A stretch of DNA of 64,000 nt from Deltaproteobacteria bacterium (GTDB lineage Bacteria > Myxococcota_A > Polyangia > Polyangiales > JADJMO01), in assembly GCA_025363655.1 (NCBI GenBank), contig JANYDK010000092.1, forward strand, positions 1-64,000, given 5' to 3'. Below are positions 27,457 through 44,699 of this stretch, piece by piece. The first letter of the stretch is position 1. Each line of letters opens with the position of its first letter. The position numbers and the translations under genes were made by a program. Under the pieces are notes generated by a model. It did not search any database, had not been told where the DNA came from, and saw only the letters and a list, made by a program, of their open reading frames with translations.

Positions 27457-27961
27457 ACCCAGCGGGCGCAAAATTTGGCCCTCTGACGCGCGGCGTGCGA
27501 TTCCGCGACGACGATGGCTGCCGATGGAACCGACGGAACTGAAGACCACGCGGGTGATGGTGAGCGTCGGGTGACGCCGCGTCGCGAGGGCGAGGACCGT
27601 CGAGCGTTCTGGCGCCCGAACCCGGACCGCCGTCGCGAGGAGACCGAGCTCGGTCGCCGCGACGTCGATTTGCCGGGCGGCTCTGAGTCACCTTCGCCAA
27701 GCAAATAGCGATCCAGAGCCGCAGGTCGATTGACGATCGCGGGACCGTGGTGTACCCAACCCCACCTCGCCGCTAAGGGCCTTCGCTCAGAGCGTCGAAA
27801 GTGCATCGCCCAGCTGTTTTGCTTGCGACGGGCACTTACGCGCGGACGCCGCCGACCTTATGGTCCGGCGCTCTCGTGTCGCTCTCTCGCATCTGAACGT
27901 CAGGGCACGGTGCCGCGCATCTCGCGCGCACGCACTTCGCCACCAGCAGTCGGAGTCTTCC
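27457..27961. other. 505-bp stretch without a convincing gene, upstream of yajC
   Basis: The stretch holds a 64-codon open frame at 27514-27708 with poor third-position bias, then about 250 bp without coding features before yajC. The promoter of the yajC-secD-secF group should lie in its right half. I see no tRNA or clear riboswitch fold. Third-position composition and lack of long frames on either strand argue that most of it is noncoding. Confidence 0.5.
27514..27708 (+). CDS. Possible small basic protein, doubtful
   Basis: A 64-codon frame from ATG 27514 encoding a hydrophilic, Arg/Asp/Glu-rich peptide with RREGEDRRAFWRPNPDRRRE in the centre. Third-codon GC is lower than in neighbouring genes, and no ribosome site is evident. 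It may be a real small protein, but a chance frame is as likely. Confidence 0.3.
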   Translation: MAADGTDGTEDHAGDGERRVTPRREGEDRRAFWRPNPDRRREETELGRRDVDLPGGSESPSPSK

Positions 27962-28429
27962 ATGTCGCTCCCCTTCTCGAACCTCCCCGTCGTCACTTGT
28001 GGCTCTTTCACCTTTGATGGCGCGCTCGCCCAGGTCGCAGCACCGGGTGGACAGCCCGCGGCGCCTGCGGGCGGCGGTTCGACGCAGCAGCAGCAGGGTG
28101 GTGGCAGCGCGCCGGGCGGCGGAAGCTTCATGACGCTCCTCCTGCCGATCGTCCTCGTCGGCTTCTTCTGGCTCTTCCTTCTGCGCCCGCAGCAGAAGAA
28201 GGCCAAGGAGCTCGACTCGAAGCTGAAGAAGGGCGACCGCGTCTTCACCAGCGCCGGCCTCATCGGGAAGATCGTCAACCTCGGTGACAAGCGCGCAATG
28301 CTCGAAATCGCGCCCAACGTGAAGATCGAAGTCATGCGCACCTCGATCGGCGGCCTCGACGACGGTGGCGACGACGCGAGCAAAGCCAAGGACGCCAAAG
28401 ACGACAAGCTCGCCGAGGCAAAGAAGTAA
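27962..28429 (+). CDS. yajC: Preprotein translocase subunit YajC
   Basis: A single membrane helix (MTLLLPIVLVGFFWLFLLRP) is followed by QQKKAKELDSKLKKGDRVFTSAGLIGKIVNL and a further beta-rich stretch ending at VMRTSIGGL, the YajC signature. The N-terminal 50 residues, rich in Gly, Gln and Pro, and the acidic/basic C-terminal tail make it 155 aa against a usual 85-110. YajC binds SecDF in the inner membrane and helps protein export. ATG 27962 is chosen; the longer frame upstream encodes only a basic leader. secD follows after a hairpin terminator. Confidence 0.93.
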   Translation: MSLPFSNLPVVTCGSFTFDGALAQVAAPGGQPAAPAGGGSTQQQQGGGSAPGGGSFMTLLLPIVLVGFFWLFLLRPQQKKAKELDSKLKKGDRVFTSAGLIGKIVNLGDKRAMLEIAPNVKIEVMRTSIGGLDDGGDDASKAKDAKDDKLAEAKK

Positions 28430-28534: not shown

Positions 28535-30451
28535 ATGAGCCGCTGGTGGTACACGAAGGTGACGTTGATCCTCCTCCTGGGGATCTCCGCGTTCATCGTG
28601 GTTTGGCCGAGCCTCGAGTCCCTGGTCGGGCTCAAGGCGCCGAAGTGGATCAAAGAGCACGTCCACGCCCGCATCAACCGCGGCCTCGACCTCCGCGGCG
28701 GCCTCCGGCTCGTCTACACGGTGCAAGTCGACGAGGCGATCAGCGACAAGCGCAACCGCGCCGCCGACGATCTGCGCCAGCGTCTCGCCCTCGCCCTCGG
28801 CATCATCAAGCAAGAGGACAAAGAGCGCTCCCTCAACCAGGCGAGCCAAGACTCTCTCGCCGCCCGCGTGAAGGTCGAGCGCTTCGAGAACAACCGCGTC
28901 CTCTTCAAGTTCAACAACGAGGCCGACGCCTCGCTCATGAGCAACCAGTTCCTCGAGAGCGTCGCCAACGAGCTCACCTGGAGCCGCCCCGACAAGCTCA
29001 CCGTCAACCTGAAGATCCTCGCCGAAGAAGAGAACCGCATCCGTGAAGGCGCGGTCAGCCAGGCGAAGAAGACGGTCGAAGGACGCGTCGACGAGCTCGG
29101 TCTGAAAGAAGCGGCGATCAGCACGCGCGACGAAGACATCATCATCGAGGTCCCCGGCGAGGACGACAAAGTCTTCGAAGAGATCAAGAGCATCGTCGCT
29201 CAGACGGCGCGCCTCGAGTTCAAGATCCTCGACGACGCCGGCGACTTCTTCGGCAAGCTCGATCAGACCGCGCACCCCCTTCCCCTCGGCGGCTCGATGC
29301 AGGCCGAGTCGGCACCCAACGGCACCGACGATCCGACGGGCGGCGCTGGCGGCAGCACCAAGTACGTCACGAGCCACTACGTCCGCGTGGTGCAACAGCC
29401 GGGCGAGACGACGCAGCAGGCGAAGGCTCGGCTCAAGGCTTGGGTCGCCACGCTCGGCGTCGCCGACGACCACCAGGTCGCGTTCGGCAACGACAGCGAG
29501 CCCGGCTCGCGCAAGACGATGAAGGACACCTGGCGCACCTACTACATGCAGAGCCGCGCCGACGTCACCGGTGAGTACATCACCGACGCGTCCGTGCAGG
29601 CCGACTCGCAGAAGGGGCCGCAACAAGAGTACTACGTCTCGCTCACGTTCTCGCCGACCGGCGCCGATCGCTTCAAGGAGATCACCGGTCGCAACATCAA
29701 GAAGCGCTTCGCCATTCTCCTCGACGACACCGTCGACTCGGCGCCGGTCATCCAGTCGGAGATCGGCGGCGGGCACGCGCAAATCACCCTCGGCGGCTCG
29801 GGCGATCGCAAGCAGCAGCTGCAAGACGCGAAGAACCTCGAGATGGTCCTCCGCGCCGGCGCGCTCCCCGCGAGCATCGAAGAGTCGAACGAGCAGCGCA
29901 TCGGCGCCTCGCTCGGTGCCGACGCCATCAAGGAAGGTCTGAAGGGCGCGGCCATCGGCGCCGGCTTCGTCCTCCTCTTCATGGTCGTCTACTACCGGGC
30001 GGCCGGCCTCATCGCGAACTTCGCCGTGCTCTTCAACCTGCTCCTCCAGCTCGCCGCGCTCGCCTTCTTCGGCGCGTCGATGACGCTGCCGGGCATCGCC
30101 GGCCTCGCGCTCACCATCGGTATGGCCGTCGACGCCAATGTGCTCATCAACGAGCGCATCCGTGAAGAGCTCCGTGAAGGTCGCTCACCGCGCGCGGCCG
30201 TCGAAACGGGGTATTCGAAGGCCTTCTCCGCCGTCTTCGACGGCCACGTCACCACCTTCATCGGTGGTCTCCTCCTCCTGCAGTACGGCACCGGACCGAT
30301 CAAGGGCTTCGCAGTGACGCTCATCATCGGCATCGTCGCCTCCCTCTTCACCGGCGTCGTTTGCACACGCATCGTCTTCGACTGGTGGGTAATCGGGCGG
30401 CGCGTGAAGAAACTCAGCCTCGGTGGCGTCACCGAGAAGGTCGCGAGCTGA
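28535..30451 (+). CDS. secD: Protein translocase subunit SecD
   Basis: A 638-aa inner-membrane protein with the first helix at 9-26, the D1 motif GLDLRGG at 50-56, a large periplasmic domain, and five C-terminal helices starting at ASLGADAIKEGLKGAAIGAGFVLLFMVVYY. GMAVDANVLINERIREEL in helix 4 contains the Asp used in proton flow. SecD with SecF uses the proton gradient to pull exported proteins through SecYEG. The periplasmic part has a Gly/Thr-rich insertion near 250-275. secF starts two bases after its stop. Confidence 0.97.
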   Translation: MSRWWYTKVTLILLLGISAFIVVWPSLESLVGLKAPKWIKEHVHARINRGLDLRGGLRLVYTVQVDEAISDKRNRAADDLRQRLALALGIIKQEDKERSLNQASQDSLAARVKVERFENNRVLFKFNNEADASLMSNQFLESVANELTWSRPDKLTVNLKILAEEENRIREGAVSQAKKTVEGRVDELGLKEAAISTRDEDIIIEVPGEDDKVFEEIKSIVAQTARLEFKILDDAGDFFGKLDQTAHPLPLGGSMQAESAPNGTDDPTGGAGGSTKYVTSHYVRVVQQPGETTQQAKARLKAWVATLGVADDHQVAFGNDSEPGSRKTMKDTWRTYYMQSRADVTGEYITDASVQADSQKGPQQEYYVSLTFSPTGADRFKEITGRNIKKRFAILLDDTVDSAPVIQSEIGGGHAQITLGGSGDRKQQLQDAKNLEMVLRAGALPASIEESNEQRIGASLGADAIKEGLKGAAIGAGFVLLFMVVYYRAAGLIANFAVLFNLLLQLAALAFFGASMTLPGIAGLALTIGMAVDANVLINERIREELREGRSPRAAVETGYSKAFSAVFDGHVTTFIGGLLLLQYGTGPIKGFAVTLIIGIVASLFTGVVCTRIVFDWWVIGRRVKKLSLGGVTEKVAS

Positions 30452-30453
30452 TC

Positions 30454-31968
30454 ATGGAGCTCATCAAGCCCGGTACCCGCATCGACTTCATGCGGCAGCG
30501 GAAGTTCTGGATCACGTTGTCGCTCGTCCTCGCGGGCATCTCGCTCGTCCTCGCTCTCATGCCGGCAGGGCTCGTGAAAGAGTTCGGCGGCCTGAAGATC
30601 GGCCTCGGTCCCAACTACGGAACCGACTTCCGCGGCGGCACCGAGCTGACCGTGAAGTTCAAGAAGCCGATGGACGTCGGCGCGCTCCGTGCCGCCATCG
30701 AGGCCATTCCTGGCTTCTCACGCCCCGACGTCGTCACCGCCGGCAACGCGGGCGAGAACAAGTTCCTCATCCGCGTGCAGGAGCACAGCTCGCTCGACGA
30801 CAAGACGATGCAGGCGGTGCGGGCCAACCTCTGCTACCGCGGGAGCCCCATCGACGAGAACGGCGCGGCCATCGCGTGCGGCAAGGGCTGCGCGGCCGGC
30901 TTCGAGTGCGACCCGGCGACCAAGACCTGCATCGACCCGGCGCTCGACGCGAACAAGTGCCCCGAGACCGGGCTCAAGGCCGGTGAGGTCAAGTTCAGTC
31001 CTGGCGGCGACAAGGTGGCCGCGCGCTTCGAAGTGCGCGCCGCCGAAGATCTGCTCGTCCCGTCGTGCCCCAAGATCGGCGAGAAGCCCGCTGGGTGCAA
31101 CGACACTGGCCTTCCGCTCCTCCGTCCCGAGATCGACACCAAGCTGCGCGCCGCGATCACCGGCGCCGGCATTGCGTTGCGCGGCGCGGTCAACGACAAG
31201 GGTCAGAACGTCGACGTCACGGTCAAGGGCAAGGAAGGCTCGGTCTCGAAGGAGTTCCGCGTCGAGGTCCAGCTCAAGTCGAAGGGCGACCTCCTCCTCG
31301 ACGAGCTGCGCAAGAAGCTCGGCGACGACGTCGTCCCCGCAGCGGCCGAGAGCGTCGAGTGGGTCGGACCGCGCGCCGGCAAGCAGCTACGCGACGCGGC
31401 GATCAAGAGCGTGCTCTTCGCCATCATCTTCATCATGGCGTACGTCGCCTTCCGCTTCGACCTGCGGTTCGCGCCGGGAGGCATCATCGCCCTCTTCCAC
31501 GACGCGCTCGTGGTCATCGGCGTCTTCATCGTCCTCCACCGCGAGATCTCGCTATCGACGATCGCCGCCATCCTCACCATCGTCGGCTACTCCATCGCCG
31601 ATACCGTCATCGTCTACGACCGCATTCGCGAAAACCTCGTGAAACACCGAGGGAAAACGTTCTACGACATCATCAACATGTCGGTGAGCGAGACGCTCTC
31701 ACGCACCATCCTGACGTCGGGCTCGGTGCTCCTCTCGGTCGCCGCGTTCTTCTTCTACGGCACCGGCATCATCAAGGACTTCGCGCTCGCCCTCTTCGTC
31801 GGCGTCCTCGCCGGAACCTACTCGTCGATCTTCGTCGCCGCCCCGATGACGGAGTGGATCGATCGCAAGTGGTTCGGCGCCTCCGCCACCAAGATCAAGC
31901 GCCGTAAGTCGAAGGCGAAGACCACGGGACCGGGCGGCGCCAAGCACCAAGCGCAGCATCAGCTCTGA
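30454..31968 (+). CDS. secF: Protein translocase subunit SecF with cysteine-rich periplasmic insertion
   Basis: Helix 1 (about 19-37), GTDFRGGTEL (56-65) and the C-terminal five helices with YSIADTVIVYDRIREN and SETLSRTILTS identify SecF. Normal SecF is about 300-320 aa; this one has 504. The extra roughly 180 residues lie in the periplasmic domain between the first helix and the core, about residues 125-300, and hold eight cysteines (127, 142, 146, 152, 159, 169, 205, 215), four of them in CGKGCAAGFECDPATKTC. The spacing recalls small disulfide-bonded EGF-like or myxobacterial Cys-repeat modules. The insertion is in frame, with no sign of frameshift. Confidence 0.95.
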   Translation: MELIKPGTRIDFMRQRKFWITLSLVLAGISLVLALMPAGLVKEFGGLKIGLGPNYGTDFRGGTELTVKFKKPMDVGALRAAIEAIPGFSRPDVVTAGNAGENKFLIRVQEHSSLDDKTMQAVRANLCYRGSPIDENGAAIACGKGCAAGFECDPATKTCIDPALDANKCPETGLKAGEVKFSPGGDKVAARFEVRAAEDLLVPSCPKIGEKPAGCNDTGLPLLRPEIDTKLRAAITGAGIALRGAVNDKGQNVDVTVKGKEGSVSKEFRVEVQLKSKGDLLLDELRKKLGDDVVPAAAESVEWVGPRAGKQLRDAAIKSVLFAIIFIMAYVAFRFDLRFAPGGIIALFHDALVVIGVFIVLHREISLSTIAAILTIVGYSIADTVIVYDRIRENLVKHRGKTFYDIINMSVSETLSRTILTSGSVLLSVAAFFFYGTGIIKDFALALFVGVLAGTYSSIFVAAPMTEWIDRKWFGASATKIKRRKSKAKTTGPGGAKHQAQHQL

Positions 31969-41938: not shown

Positions 41939-42633
41939 AGGCGGGAGAGCATAGTGGTTTCACCGGCGAGAAAGGGACCGACCTGTTCGGCCATCGGGCC
42001 TCGTCCGCTCGTGAACGAATGATCCGTGCGCGGGAGGAGGACGAGGTCGGCGTGGAAGTGGCTGGCGACTGCGCGCGCGCGGCGCTCGTCGCAGAAGACG
42101 TCGCGATCACCGACGATGACGCCGGTGGGTACACCGCACGCGGCTGTGCCCTTCAGGTAGTCGAGGAACGACGCCGCCGGCGCGACGAAGAGGACGCGAT
42201 CGATCTCGAGCTCGGAGGCGACGTCGACCGTGAGCGCCCGCGCGAGCACCCATGAGCCGAACGAATAGCCCGCGACGCCGAGCGTGACGCCAGGAAGCGA
42301 CGACGCACCGAAGCGAAGCGCAGCGAGGAGATCGAGGCGCTCGCGATCACCGCCGTCGTAGCTTCCTTCGCTCCGCCCGACGCCACGGAAGTCGAAGCGG
42401 AGGACGGCCACTCCGCGGAGGACGAGCGCCTTGGCGAGGGCGACGACGACGGCATTGTCCATGTCGCCGCCGTAGCGAGGATGCGGGTGTGCGAGGACGA
42501 CGAGCCGGCGTGCACCTTCAGGGACGAGCCATCGGCCATCGAGCGTGACGCCATCCTCGGCAGCGAAGGTGACCCGCTCTTCTGCGCGCAATGCCGCTGG
42601 AAGGCCGGGAAACGCCGCTTCGATTCTCGTCAT
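41935..42633 (-). CDS. Alpha/beta hydrolase, small dienelactone-like
   Basis: 232 aa from ATG 42633. LAHPHPRYGGDMDNAVV (48-62), RFDFRGVGRSEG (79-90), the nucleophile Ser124 in GYSFGSW, Asp176 or Asp178 in VGDRDVF, and His205 in RTDHSF give the whole catalytic triad of an alpha/beta hydrolase. It is the type often annotated as predicted alpha/beta hydrolase of the YheT/short-lipase kind. The substrate is unknown. Its stop overlaps the GTG of the downstream PLP enzyme. It is divergent from the Cys-rich lipoprotein operon. Confidence 0.85.
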   Translation of the reverse strand: MTRIEAAFPGLPAALRAEERVTFAAEDGVTLDGRWLVPEGARRLVVLAHPHPRYGGDMDNAVVVALAKALVLRGVAVLRFDFRGVGRSEGSYDGGDRERLDLLAALRFGASSLPGVTLGVAGYSFGSWVLARALTVDVASELEIDRVLFVAPAASFLDYLKGTAACGVPTGVIVGDRDVFCDERRARAVASHFHADLVLLPRTDHSFTSGRGPMAEQVGPFLAGETTMLSRL

Positions 42634-42709
42634 CGGCCGCGCTCCATCGGAGACCGGCCATAGCACGCCGCGTTGCTCGACGCCTCGTGCCGTGTCAGCG
42701 TCGACATCG

Positions 42710-43402
42710 ATGCGACGTCCTCTCCTCGCCTGCGCTTTCGCCCTCGCGGCGGCATCTCTCGGCTCGCTCGGCGCGTGCGGACCGAACCAGCCCGCAGTGA
42801 GCCCGCTCGGTTCGCCGAGTGGCAGTGGAAGCACCAGCGCGAGCGAAAAGCCGCCCGTGAACGATGGCAGCGACGCGGCCTGCAAACGCGTCTGCGTCGT
42901 GCAAACCAAGTGCGGCGGCGATCCGAAAATGTGCAGCCTCAAGTGCCTACCCATCGCCCGCGTGCTCCAGGGTGAGGTGGTCGAGGCGATGGTCTCGTGC
43001 GTCGAGAAGAAGGGCGGCGAGAAGCCGGGCTGCGACGACGACAGCGTCCTCGCGCGCAAGAGGCTCGCCGGCGAATGCGTCCTCGAGGCGACGTCGACCA
43101 AGAAGGACTCGGCGCGCGCCAACATCGAGCTCTTCGCCAAGGCCTATTGCGAAGCGTCCGCGACCTGCGGAAACGCCAGCGGCACCGTCGGCGTCAACGA
43201 GTGTCTCGGCGAAGCGCGCGGCGCGATCCTCGCCACCGAGGGCGACTCGTCGGGCGGCCTCTACGGCTCGATTCGCAGCGACCGCATCGACGAGATGTTG
43301 AAGTGCTTCCACGGCCCCTGCGACCAACGCAAGACCACCGCCGACGCCGAGCTCGAACGCTGCCTCGATGCGACGTTGGCCAAGGCCGCCGAGGCCCCGT
43401 GA
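42710..43402 (+). CDS. Cysteine-rich lipoprotein, paralogue A
   Basis: Signal peptide ending SLGAC places the lipid on Cys23. A Ser/Gly-rich linker leads to a cysteine-rich domain of about 170 residues with ACKRVCVVQTKCGGDPKMCSLKC near its start, then further cysteines in MVSCVEKK, GECVLEA, YCEASATCG, NECLGEA, LKCFHGPC and ERCLD. The same order and spacing recurs in the next two genes. The domain is probably held by disulfides outside the cytoplasm. Its stop overlaps the GTG of paralogue B. No known family was recognised. Confidence 0.75.
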   Translation: MRRPLLACAFALAAASLGSLGACGPNQPAVSPLGSPSGSGSTSASEKPPVNDGSDAACKRVCVVQTKCGGDPKMCSLKCLPIARVLQGEVVEAMVSCVEKKGGEKPGCDDDSVLARKRLAGECVLEATSTKKDSARANIELFAKAYCEASATCGNASGTVGVNECLGEARGAILATEGDSSGGLYGSIRSDRIDEMLKCFHGPCDQRKTTADAELERCLDATLAKAAEAP

Positions 43403-44061
43403 TCCGTGGCGCCTGGCGCGTCCTCCGGGGCGGGTCGCTCGTGGTTGCCTTCACGTGCCTCATGAGTCTCACGAGCTGCGCGGCGAACCAGCCGAAAAAT
43501 GCAGCGCCGATCGATTCGTCGCCAGCGCCCTGCATCGCGCTCTGCGACGACGAGGCGCGATGTGGTGACGTCGCTCCGACGTGCCGATCGACTTGCGCGC
43601 GCGAATCCGGCATCTTCCAAGCGAGCGTGACGGAGCGCGTCGTCGCCTGTCGCAAGGATTCATTGGCCACCAACTGCTACGGAAAGAGTAGCGCTTTCAC
43701 CCACGGCGATCTCCTCGCCGACGGGCGTTGCTTCGGAATCGCTGCGGCGGCGGTCGGCAAGGGCGAGGACAACCGCCGTCGCTTCGCCGATGCCTCGTGC
43801 ATGCGCATGCTTCGTTGCCAGGTCTCGGGTCCGCCGCCGGGGCCGGAGGTCCGGAAGGAATGCGTCGAGCTGACGATTCATCCGCCGGATGGTGGCGAGG
43901 CCGACGAGCGCGAGGCGATGATGGTGCTCGACGCGCTCCGGCCCGAGGTGGTGACGACCCTCGGCGGATGCCTCCACGACGCCCCCTGCCCGGCGCCGGG
44001 CAAGAGCGACAGCGCGGGTGATGCATGTCTCCTCGCGGCCATCGGCCGGAGCGATCCGTGA
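43399..44061 (+). CDS. Cysteine-rich lipoprotein, paralogue B
   Basis: GTG 43399 overlaps the previous stop. The signal peptide ends SLTSC. The domain repeats the pattern of paralogue A: PCIALCDDEARCGDVAPTCRSTC, then VVACRKD, DGRCFGIA, SCMRMLRCQ, KECVELT, GGCLHDAPC and DACLLA. Residue identity between copies is low outside the cysteines, so the duplications are old. At 220 aa it is nearly the same size as its neighbours. Its stop is again overlapped by the next GTG. Function unknown; extracytoplasmic disulfide-bonded domain assumed. Confidence 0.75.
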   Translation: MIRGAWRVLRGGSLVVAFTCLMSLTSCAANQPKNAAPIDSSPAPCIALCDDEARCGDVAPTCRSTCARESGIFQASVTERVVACRKDSLATNCYGKSSAFTHGDLLADGRCFGIAAAAVGKGEDNRRRFADASCMRMLRCQVSGPPPGPEVRKECVELTIHPPDGGEADEREAMMVLDALRPEVVTTLGGCLHDAPCPAPGKSDSAGDACLLAAIGRSDP

Positions 44062-44699
44062 ACGAGCACCGTCGTCCATTTGCCGTATTTTCATGTGTAT
44101 TTCACGTCGTCTCCCTCGTCTGCCTGTCCGCGCTGAGTGGCTGCTTCGAGCCGAGCACGCCGAAGGCGACGCCGGTGGTGCCGCTCACCGACGAGAACGC
44201 ATGCGCGCGACTCTGCACGCGGATGGAGACCTGCGGTGGCGCGCCGACGCATTGCGAGGCGAGCTGCGAACGCGATCGAGCGCGGATGCGTGACGGCTTC
44301 GACGCCTCCTTCGTCGGCTGCGTCGAGCACGAGCTCGGACCGACGGTCTGCCCAGGAGGCGGCGCCACCCTCGACGAGCACAAGCGTCGCGGCGCGGTCT
44401 CGCTCTGCTACGGCGCGACGTTGGTCACCTACGCCAAGAAGGACGACGGCCTCGCGCTCCGTTCCGTCTTGCGCGCGGTCTGTCGCCGAAGCGTTCGTTG
44501 CGAACCGAGCGGTGACGACGAGCCGACGTGTCTCGCCGAGCTCTCGGCGCACACCAAGGGAAGCGCAGTTGCGACCGTGCTCGCCGGAGCACGACCTGAG
44601 ATCGTCCAGCAAATCGCCGCCTGCGTCGAAAAGCGGCCTTGCGAAGAGGCCAACCCGTTCGCCGCTTGCGACACGCCGGGCGCGCCGCTCGTGCCCTGA
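44058..44699 (+). CDS. Cysteine-rich lipoprotein, paralogue C
   Basis: GTG 44058 overlaps the stop of paralogue B. Signal peptide ends SALSGC. The cysteine pattern follows the other two: [62 protein letters not shown] and AACDTP. 213 aa. The helical stretch before the last cysteines, [20 protein letters not shown], is shared with paralogue B (MVLDALRPEVVTTLGG), supporting common origin. Being last, it is followed only by a 43-bp gap to the convergent yggS gene. Confidence 0.75.

Follow-up and report, generated by a model that had tools for sequence, protein, structure and literature searches.

Among the conserved components of bacterial protein export is SecDF, whose P4 domain is small in all of the few structures solved so far. 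The secF gene described here lies in a stretch of 64,000 nucleotides from a deltaproteobacterial contig (JANYDK010000092.1; referred to as the window), and its product has a much larger P4 with eight cysteines. This raises the question of how the domain grew and what its cysteines do, for which a sequence-only reading had suggested a disulfide-knotted insertion that might bind or fold cysteine-rich secreted proteins.

For comparison, SecF sequences were taken from 56 relatives and from 80 named loci of GTDB species genomes, and 60 further regions and 30 loci were added across the order and the phylum. P4 size and cysteine counts refer to 182 Myxococcota SecFs, the columns of the conserved cysteine pair to 97 distinct Polyangia-type SecFs. 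A literature search, mostly outside subscription journals, returned neither a publication on insertions in the SecF of Myxococcota nor a description of a duplicated, disulfide-looped P4.

The secF gene and its periplasmic domain

The 504 aa product is securely assigned to the SecF family by its profile matches (Table 1). The gene is the only strong SecF match in this genome and directly follows secD, in the usual order yajC-secD-secF, with yajC being probable. The transmembrane-core motifs GYS..D, DR.REN and S.T..R are present, and residues D383, D389, R390, R392, E393 and R417 are invariant across 77 SecFs. Family, gene order and transmembrane core are shared with known SecF and SecDF proteins (TIGR00966, PF02355; 3AQP, 5YHF, 5XAM, 5XAN, 5XAP), and the ferredoxin-like core of P4 is common to this SecF and the solved P4 domain of SecDF (2RRN). 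In contrast to solved SecDF, P4 is larger by ~180 residues, apparently duplicated, and contains eight cysteines; the inserted stretch is missing from the solved chains of SecDF and SecF that were aligned, including E. coli SecF in 5MG3. RND transporters such as AcrB, which have a related fold in the membrane part, rank after SecDF in the full-length Foldseek list, with TM-scores of 0.34-0.38 and an rmsd near 20.

Table 1. Features at the secF locus, with positions in the window and residue numbers of SecF.
Feature	Position	Strand	Remark
Probable yajC	27860-28429	+	based on ORF position and reading of the sequence by eye
secD, partner subunit	28535-30451	+	638 aa; TIGR01129 403 bits
secF	30454-31968	+	504 aa; TIGR00966 288.4 bits (cut-off 160), PF02355 212-215 bits
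Enlarged P4 periplasmic domain, residues 38-311	30565-31386	+	AlphaFold2 model; outer parts align to solved SecDF P4
P4 copy 1 of putative duplication, residues 53-183, including loop 1	30610-31002	+	profile comparison
P4 copy 2 of putative duplication, residues 184-306	31003-31371	+	profile comparison
Loop 1, Cys127...Cys169	30832-30960	+	end cysteines conserved in clade
Four-Cys module CGKGCAAGFECDPATKTC, residues 142-159, inside loop 1	30877-30930	+	this genome only
Loop 2 insert, Cys205/Cys215, residues 203-223	31060-31122	+	this genome only
Hairpin extension, residues 247-266, Cys-free	31192-31251	+	family-wide

The sequence-only reading had placed the cysteines exactly, at positions 127, 142, 146, 152, 159, 169, 205 and 215; all of them are located in the periplasmic P4 domain, and SecF has no further cysteine. 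By cysteine count, SecD contains a single one (610), near its C-terminus, and its periplasmic domain region is Cys-free. The estimate of about 180 extra residues was correct in size, as ~13 residues of Thermus SecDF correspond to ~183 here (SecF residues 107-290), but these residues form several layers of differing age instead of a single insertion. A sequence error at the borders of the inserts, which had been considered as well, is unlikely, since the reading frame is open across them and their GC3 of 0.86-1.00 matches that of the gene; in the remaining four genomes of the family, SecF aligns on either side of each insert.

AlphaFold2 modelled the full SecF with a mean pLDDT of 89.0 and a pTM of 0.81, and the P4 domain alone with values of 85.9 and 0.80, respectively. 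A Foldseek search with the P4 domain alone gave no match below an E-value of 0.001. VIA-align recovered the SecDF P4, with Z-scores of 8.2 to 5XAN and 7.7 to 2RRN over ~80 residues. A Z-score near 8 is modest alone; with the sequence in agreement, the model indicates that the ferredoxin-like P4 domain is present.

Enlargement and probable tandem duplication of P4

Enlargement of P4 is common in Myxococcota, as the region comprises at least 130 residues in 162 of the 182 SecFs, with a standard P4 in about 19. In the remaining four members of this family, SecF comprises 458-469 aa and contains two cysteines. In a second family (f12) the length is 403-419 aa, and families without the Cys127/Cys169 pair have mostly 374-410 aa, with some f6 members reaching 448-484 aa. 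Most sampled families are enlarged, and some keep a P4 of standard size (~97-122 residues; L149-L170). The myxobacterial SecFs L210 and L171 have long low-complexity P4 inserts, rich in Ala/Gly/Pro or Lys/Glu and free of cysteine clusters.

Within this order, P4 appears to have arisen by tandem duplication of its ferredoxin-like unit. The pattern GGTELTVKF..ALRAAIEAI..KFLIRVQ.. of copy 1 is paralleled by GGDKVAARF..KLRAAITGA..EFRVEVQ.. in copy 2, and the profiles of the two copies (96 sequences each) match with Prob 94, an E-value of 1.4e-7 and a score of 41, compared to 13 for a reversed profile and 19.9 for the best of 100 column shuffles, a moderate signal from a comparison that covers the Polyangiales-type set. 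The alignment to the solved P4 draws on both ends of the domain model, which suggests that one ferredoxin-like unit may be nested inside the other. Three tandem P4 units are found in a SecF of 506 aa from a Myxococcales MAG (JAJZQG010000156.1; L093:1259-2776); the third is 41% identical to its neighbour (E 3e-24) and bears its own LC...CP cysteine pair. The periplasmic loops of RND transporters also contain paired ferredoxin-like subdomains; that the doubled P4 resembles such pairs may serve as a lead.

Paired cysteines in the P4 loops

An insertion confined to this genome would have spoken against the sequence-only reading. Such confinement holds for six of the eight cysteines, but not for Cys127 and Cys169, which are conserved in 77 of the 97 Polyangia-type SecFs; the other 20 have neither, and not one sequence has a single member of the pair. 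The pair is invariant within one Polyangia clade, and on a tree calculated without the P4 columns it needs 2 changes, with the starred branches forcing only 1, so that a single origin is conceivable. Between the end cysteines, loop 1 spans 5-23 residues elsewhere and 41 in this genome. Its length varies while its end cysteines stay fixed, which is the expected picture for a disulfide-closed loop, and from the strict co-occurrence of the two residues we infer that a Cys127-Cys169 disulfide closes loop 1. Several Polyangium, Minicystis and Byssovorax genomes encode two different SecFs each, both bearing the pair (L073/L084, L074/L091, L076/L088, L078/L092, L089/L102).

The six extra cysteines are known from one draft assembly, the sole genome of its genus that was compared, and its SecF is the most elaborate among the 182. 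The four-Cys module was modelled at a block pLDDT of 86-95 with a predicted short hairpin (E151-153/E158-160), the loop 2 insert less confidently at 71-79. The hairpin extension occurs in all five family members and is absent from the other families aligned. From the small disulfide-knotted module of the earlier reading, the cysteine-rich elaboration of P4 is retained, with the four-Cys module confidently modelled and disulfides probable. TIGR02232-type myxobacterial disulfide-rich repeats provide similarly spaced short cysteine modules in the cysteine-rich proteins of this genome, but SecF residues 124-178 matched no NCBIfam family up to an E-value of 1, TIGR02232 included, and Pfam returned only a weak match of the module below the cut-off (Lustrin_cystein, E 0.064). 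A recent DNA donor for the module was not found within the genome, the best off-target match having an E-value of 0.0099 over 22-46 bases.

Across the 182 SecFs, P4 contains no cysteine in 99 cases, two in 72, four in seven and eight in one, with the odd exceptions being two proteins with three cysteines (L044 and L051) and one with a single cysteine (L213). Hence, the count is even in 179 of 182, and that of the membrane and cytoplasmic parts is odd in 73 of 182; the sequences share ancestry, and the counts do not represent independent events. Sporadic gains of P4 cysteines (L137, L165, L171, L200, L215) likewise came in twos, and the second loop acquired a cysteine pair separately in another clade (L095-L098, L110, L111). 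A P4 with four or more cysteines requires 3 changes on the tree.

In this genome, VKOR shares a single open frame with a DsbA-like CPFC domain (L219; G000:C81:5690-6034, minus strand), so that periplasmic oxidation is available; a search of the genome detected no DsbB. Owing to the even cysteine counts and the VKOR-DsbA fusion, structural disulfides are the best reading, and the SecF P4 loops are very probably closed by such bonds. It is highly improbable that the cysteines bind a metal ion instead: the four clustered ones (142, 146, 152 and 159) could in principle make a site, but cysteines were acquired in pairs, at positions apart from one another, the location is periplasmic in a genome with VKOR-DsbA, and no metal-site family was matched.

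Probable stepwise growth and proposed role of the loops

We consider it quite probable that this protein is a genuine SecF whose P4 was enlarged in stages, with structural disulfides in its loops bracing the periplasmic face. In a first step, the ferredoxin-like P4 unit would have been tandemly duplicated in this order, as judged from the profile comparison. The linker after copy 1 may then have become a loop of variable length, closed by the Cys127-Cys169 disulfide in one Polyangia clade. Subsequently, loop 1 of this genome would have received the four-Cys module and its second loop a cysteine pair of its own, which would yield up to four structural disulfides. The loop cysteines would be oxidised by the VKOR-DsbA system of the genome, and the bonds likely rigidify exposed, protease-accessible loops on the periplasmic face of SecDF.

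A more doubtful explanation, though largely compatible with staged enlargement and loop bracing, is that the extra segments represent tolerated, near-neutral growth of a hypervariable surface loop that is merely compacted by disulfides. The range of loop 1 lengths within the clade (5-41), the presence of the six extra cysteines in one genome and the separate origin of other elaborations would fit such growth, while the end cysteines were never lost in 77 members, which suggests selection on loop closure.

A client role, in which the cysteine-rich module would bind or hold cysteine-rich secreted proteins emerging from the translocon or assist in their folding, appears improbable. The module does resemble those of cysteine-rich proteins of its own genome, such as CTPGFICDATTKTC and CASGYTCDTKSGTC, and recruitment of SurA at the exit site has been suggested for the periplasmic domains of SecDF (PMC9987972). 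However, the module has no CxxC redox motif, and its strongest match in other parts of the genome has an E-value of only 0.014. Contrary to the expectation for a client role, pair-bearing families carry fewer TIGR02232 repeats per Mb, a crude proxy for cysteine-rich exported proteins, with medians of 1.15 for 14 genomes with the pair and 3.93 for 39 without (Mann-Whitney p = 3e-4, uncorrected for phylogeny). As this proxy covers one repeat type and ignores phylogeny, it weakens the client idea rather than excluding it. The sequence-only reading had also assigned the insertion to the part of SecDF in contact with the preprotein; the polypeptide-binding candidate in the literature lies in SecD, namely its P1 head, and not in P4 (PMC8082313). 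The DNA pattern of the four-Cys module was also tried as a measure of cysteine-rich proteins in 56 genomes and performed no better than its reversed control; TIGR02232 was used in its place.

Starting from the observed co-occurrence and parity of the cysteines, and with bonds and role presumed from these, structural bracing of the exposed loops is the most likely reading, because the client proxy runs in the opposite direction and preprotein binding has been proposed for the P1 head of SecD. The disulfide loops could possibly bind a chaperone or client, and P4 loops might contact the preprotein, a chaperone or YidC/BAM. The wider proposal is unlikely, namely that the disulfide-closed loops are functional, redox-sensitive or client/chaperone-docking elements of the SecDF motor, and that the doubled P4 forms a second periplasmic subdomain like the SecD P1 head or the RND pairs.

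Enlargement of P4 throughout the lineage, with joint retention or loss of its paired cysteines, shows remodelling of this part of the motor. SecFs that have one, two or three P4 units and either possess or lack the loops offer a cheap natural system for studying the role of the domain. Elsewhere in the window, two neighbouring cysteine-rich frames on the forward strand (42476-43399 and 44022-44696) have lipoprotein-like starts and a common CxxxC...C motif; with 18-19 cysteines each, counted from stop to stop, they are possibly paralogues.
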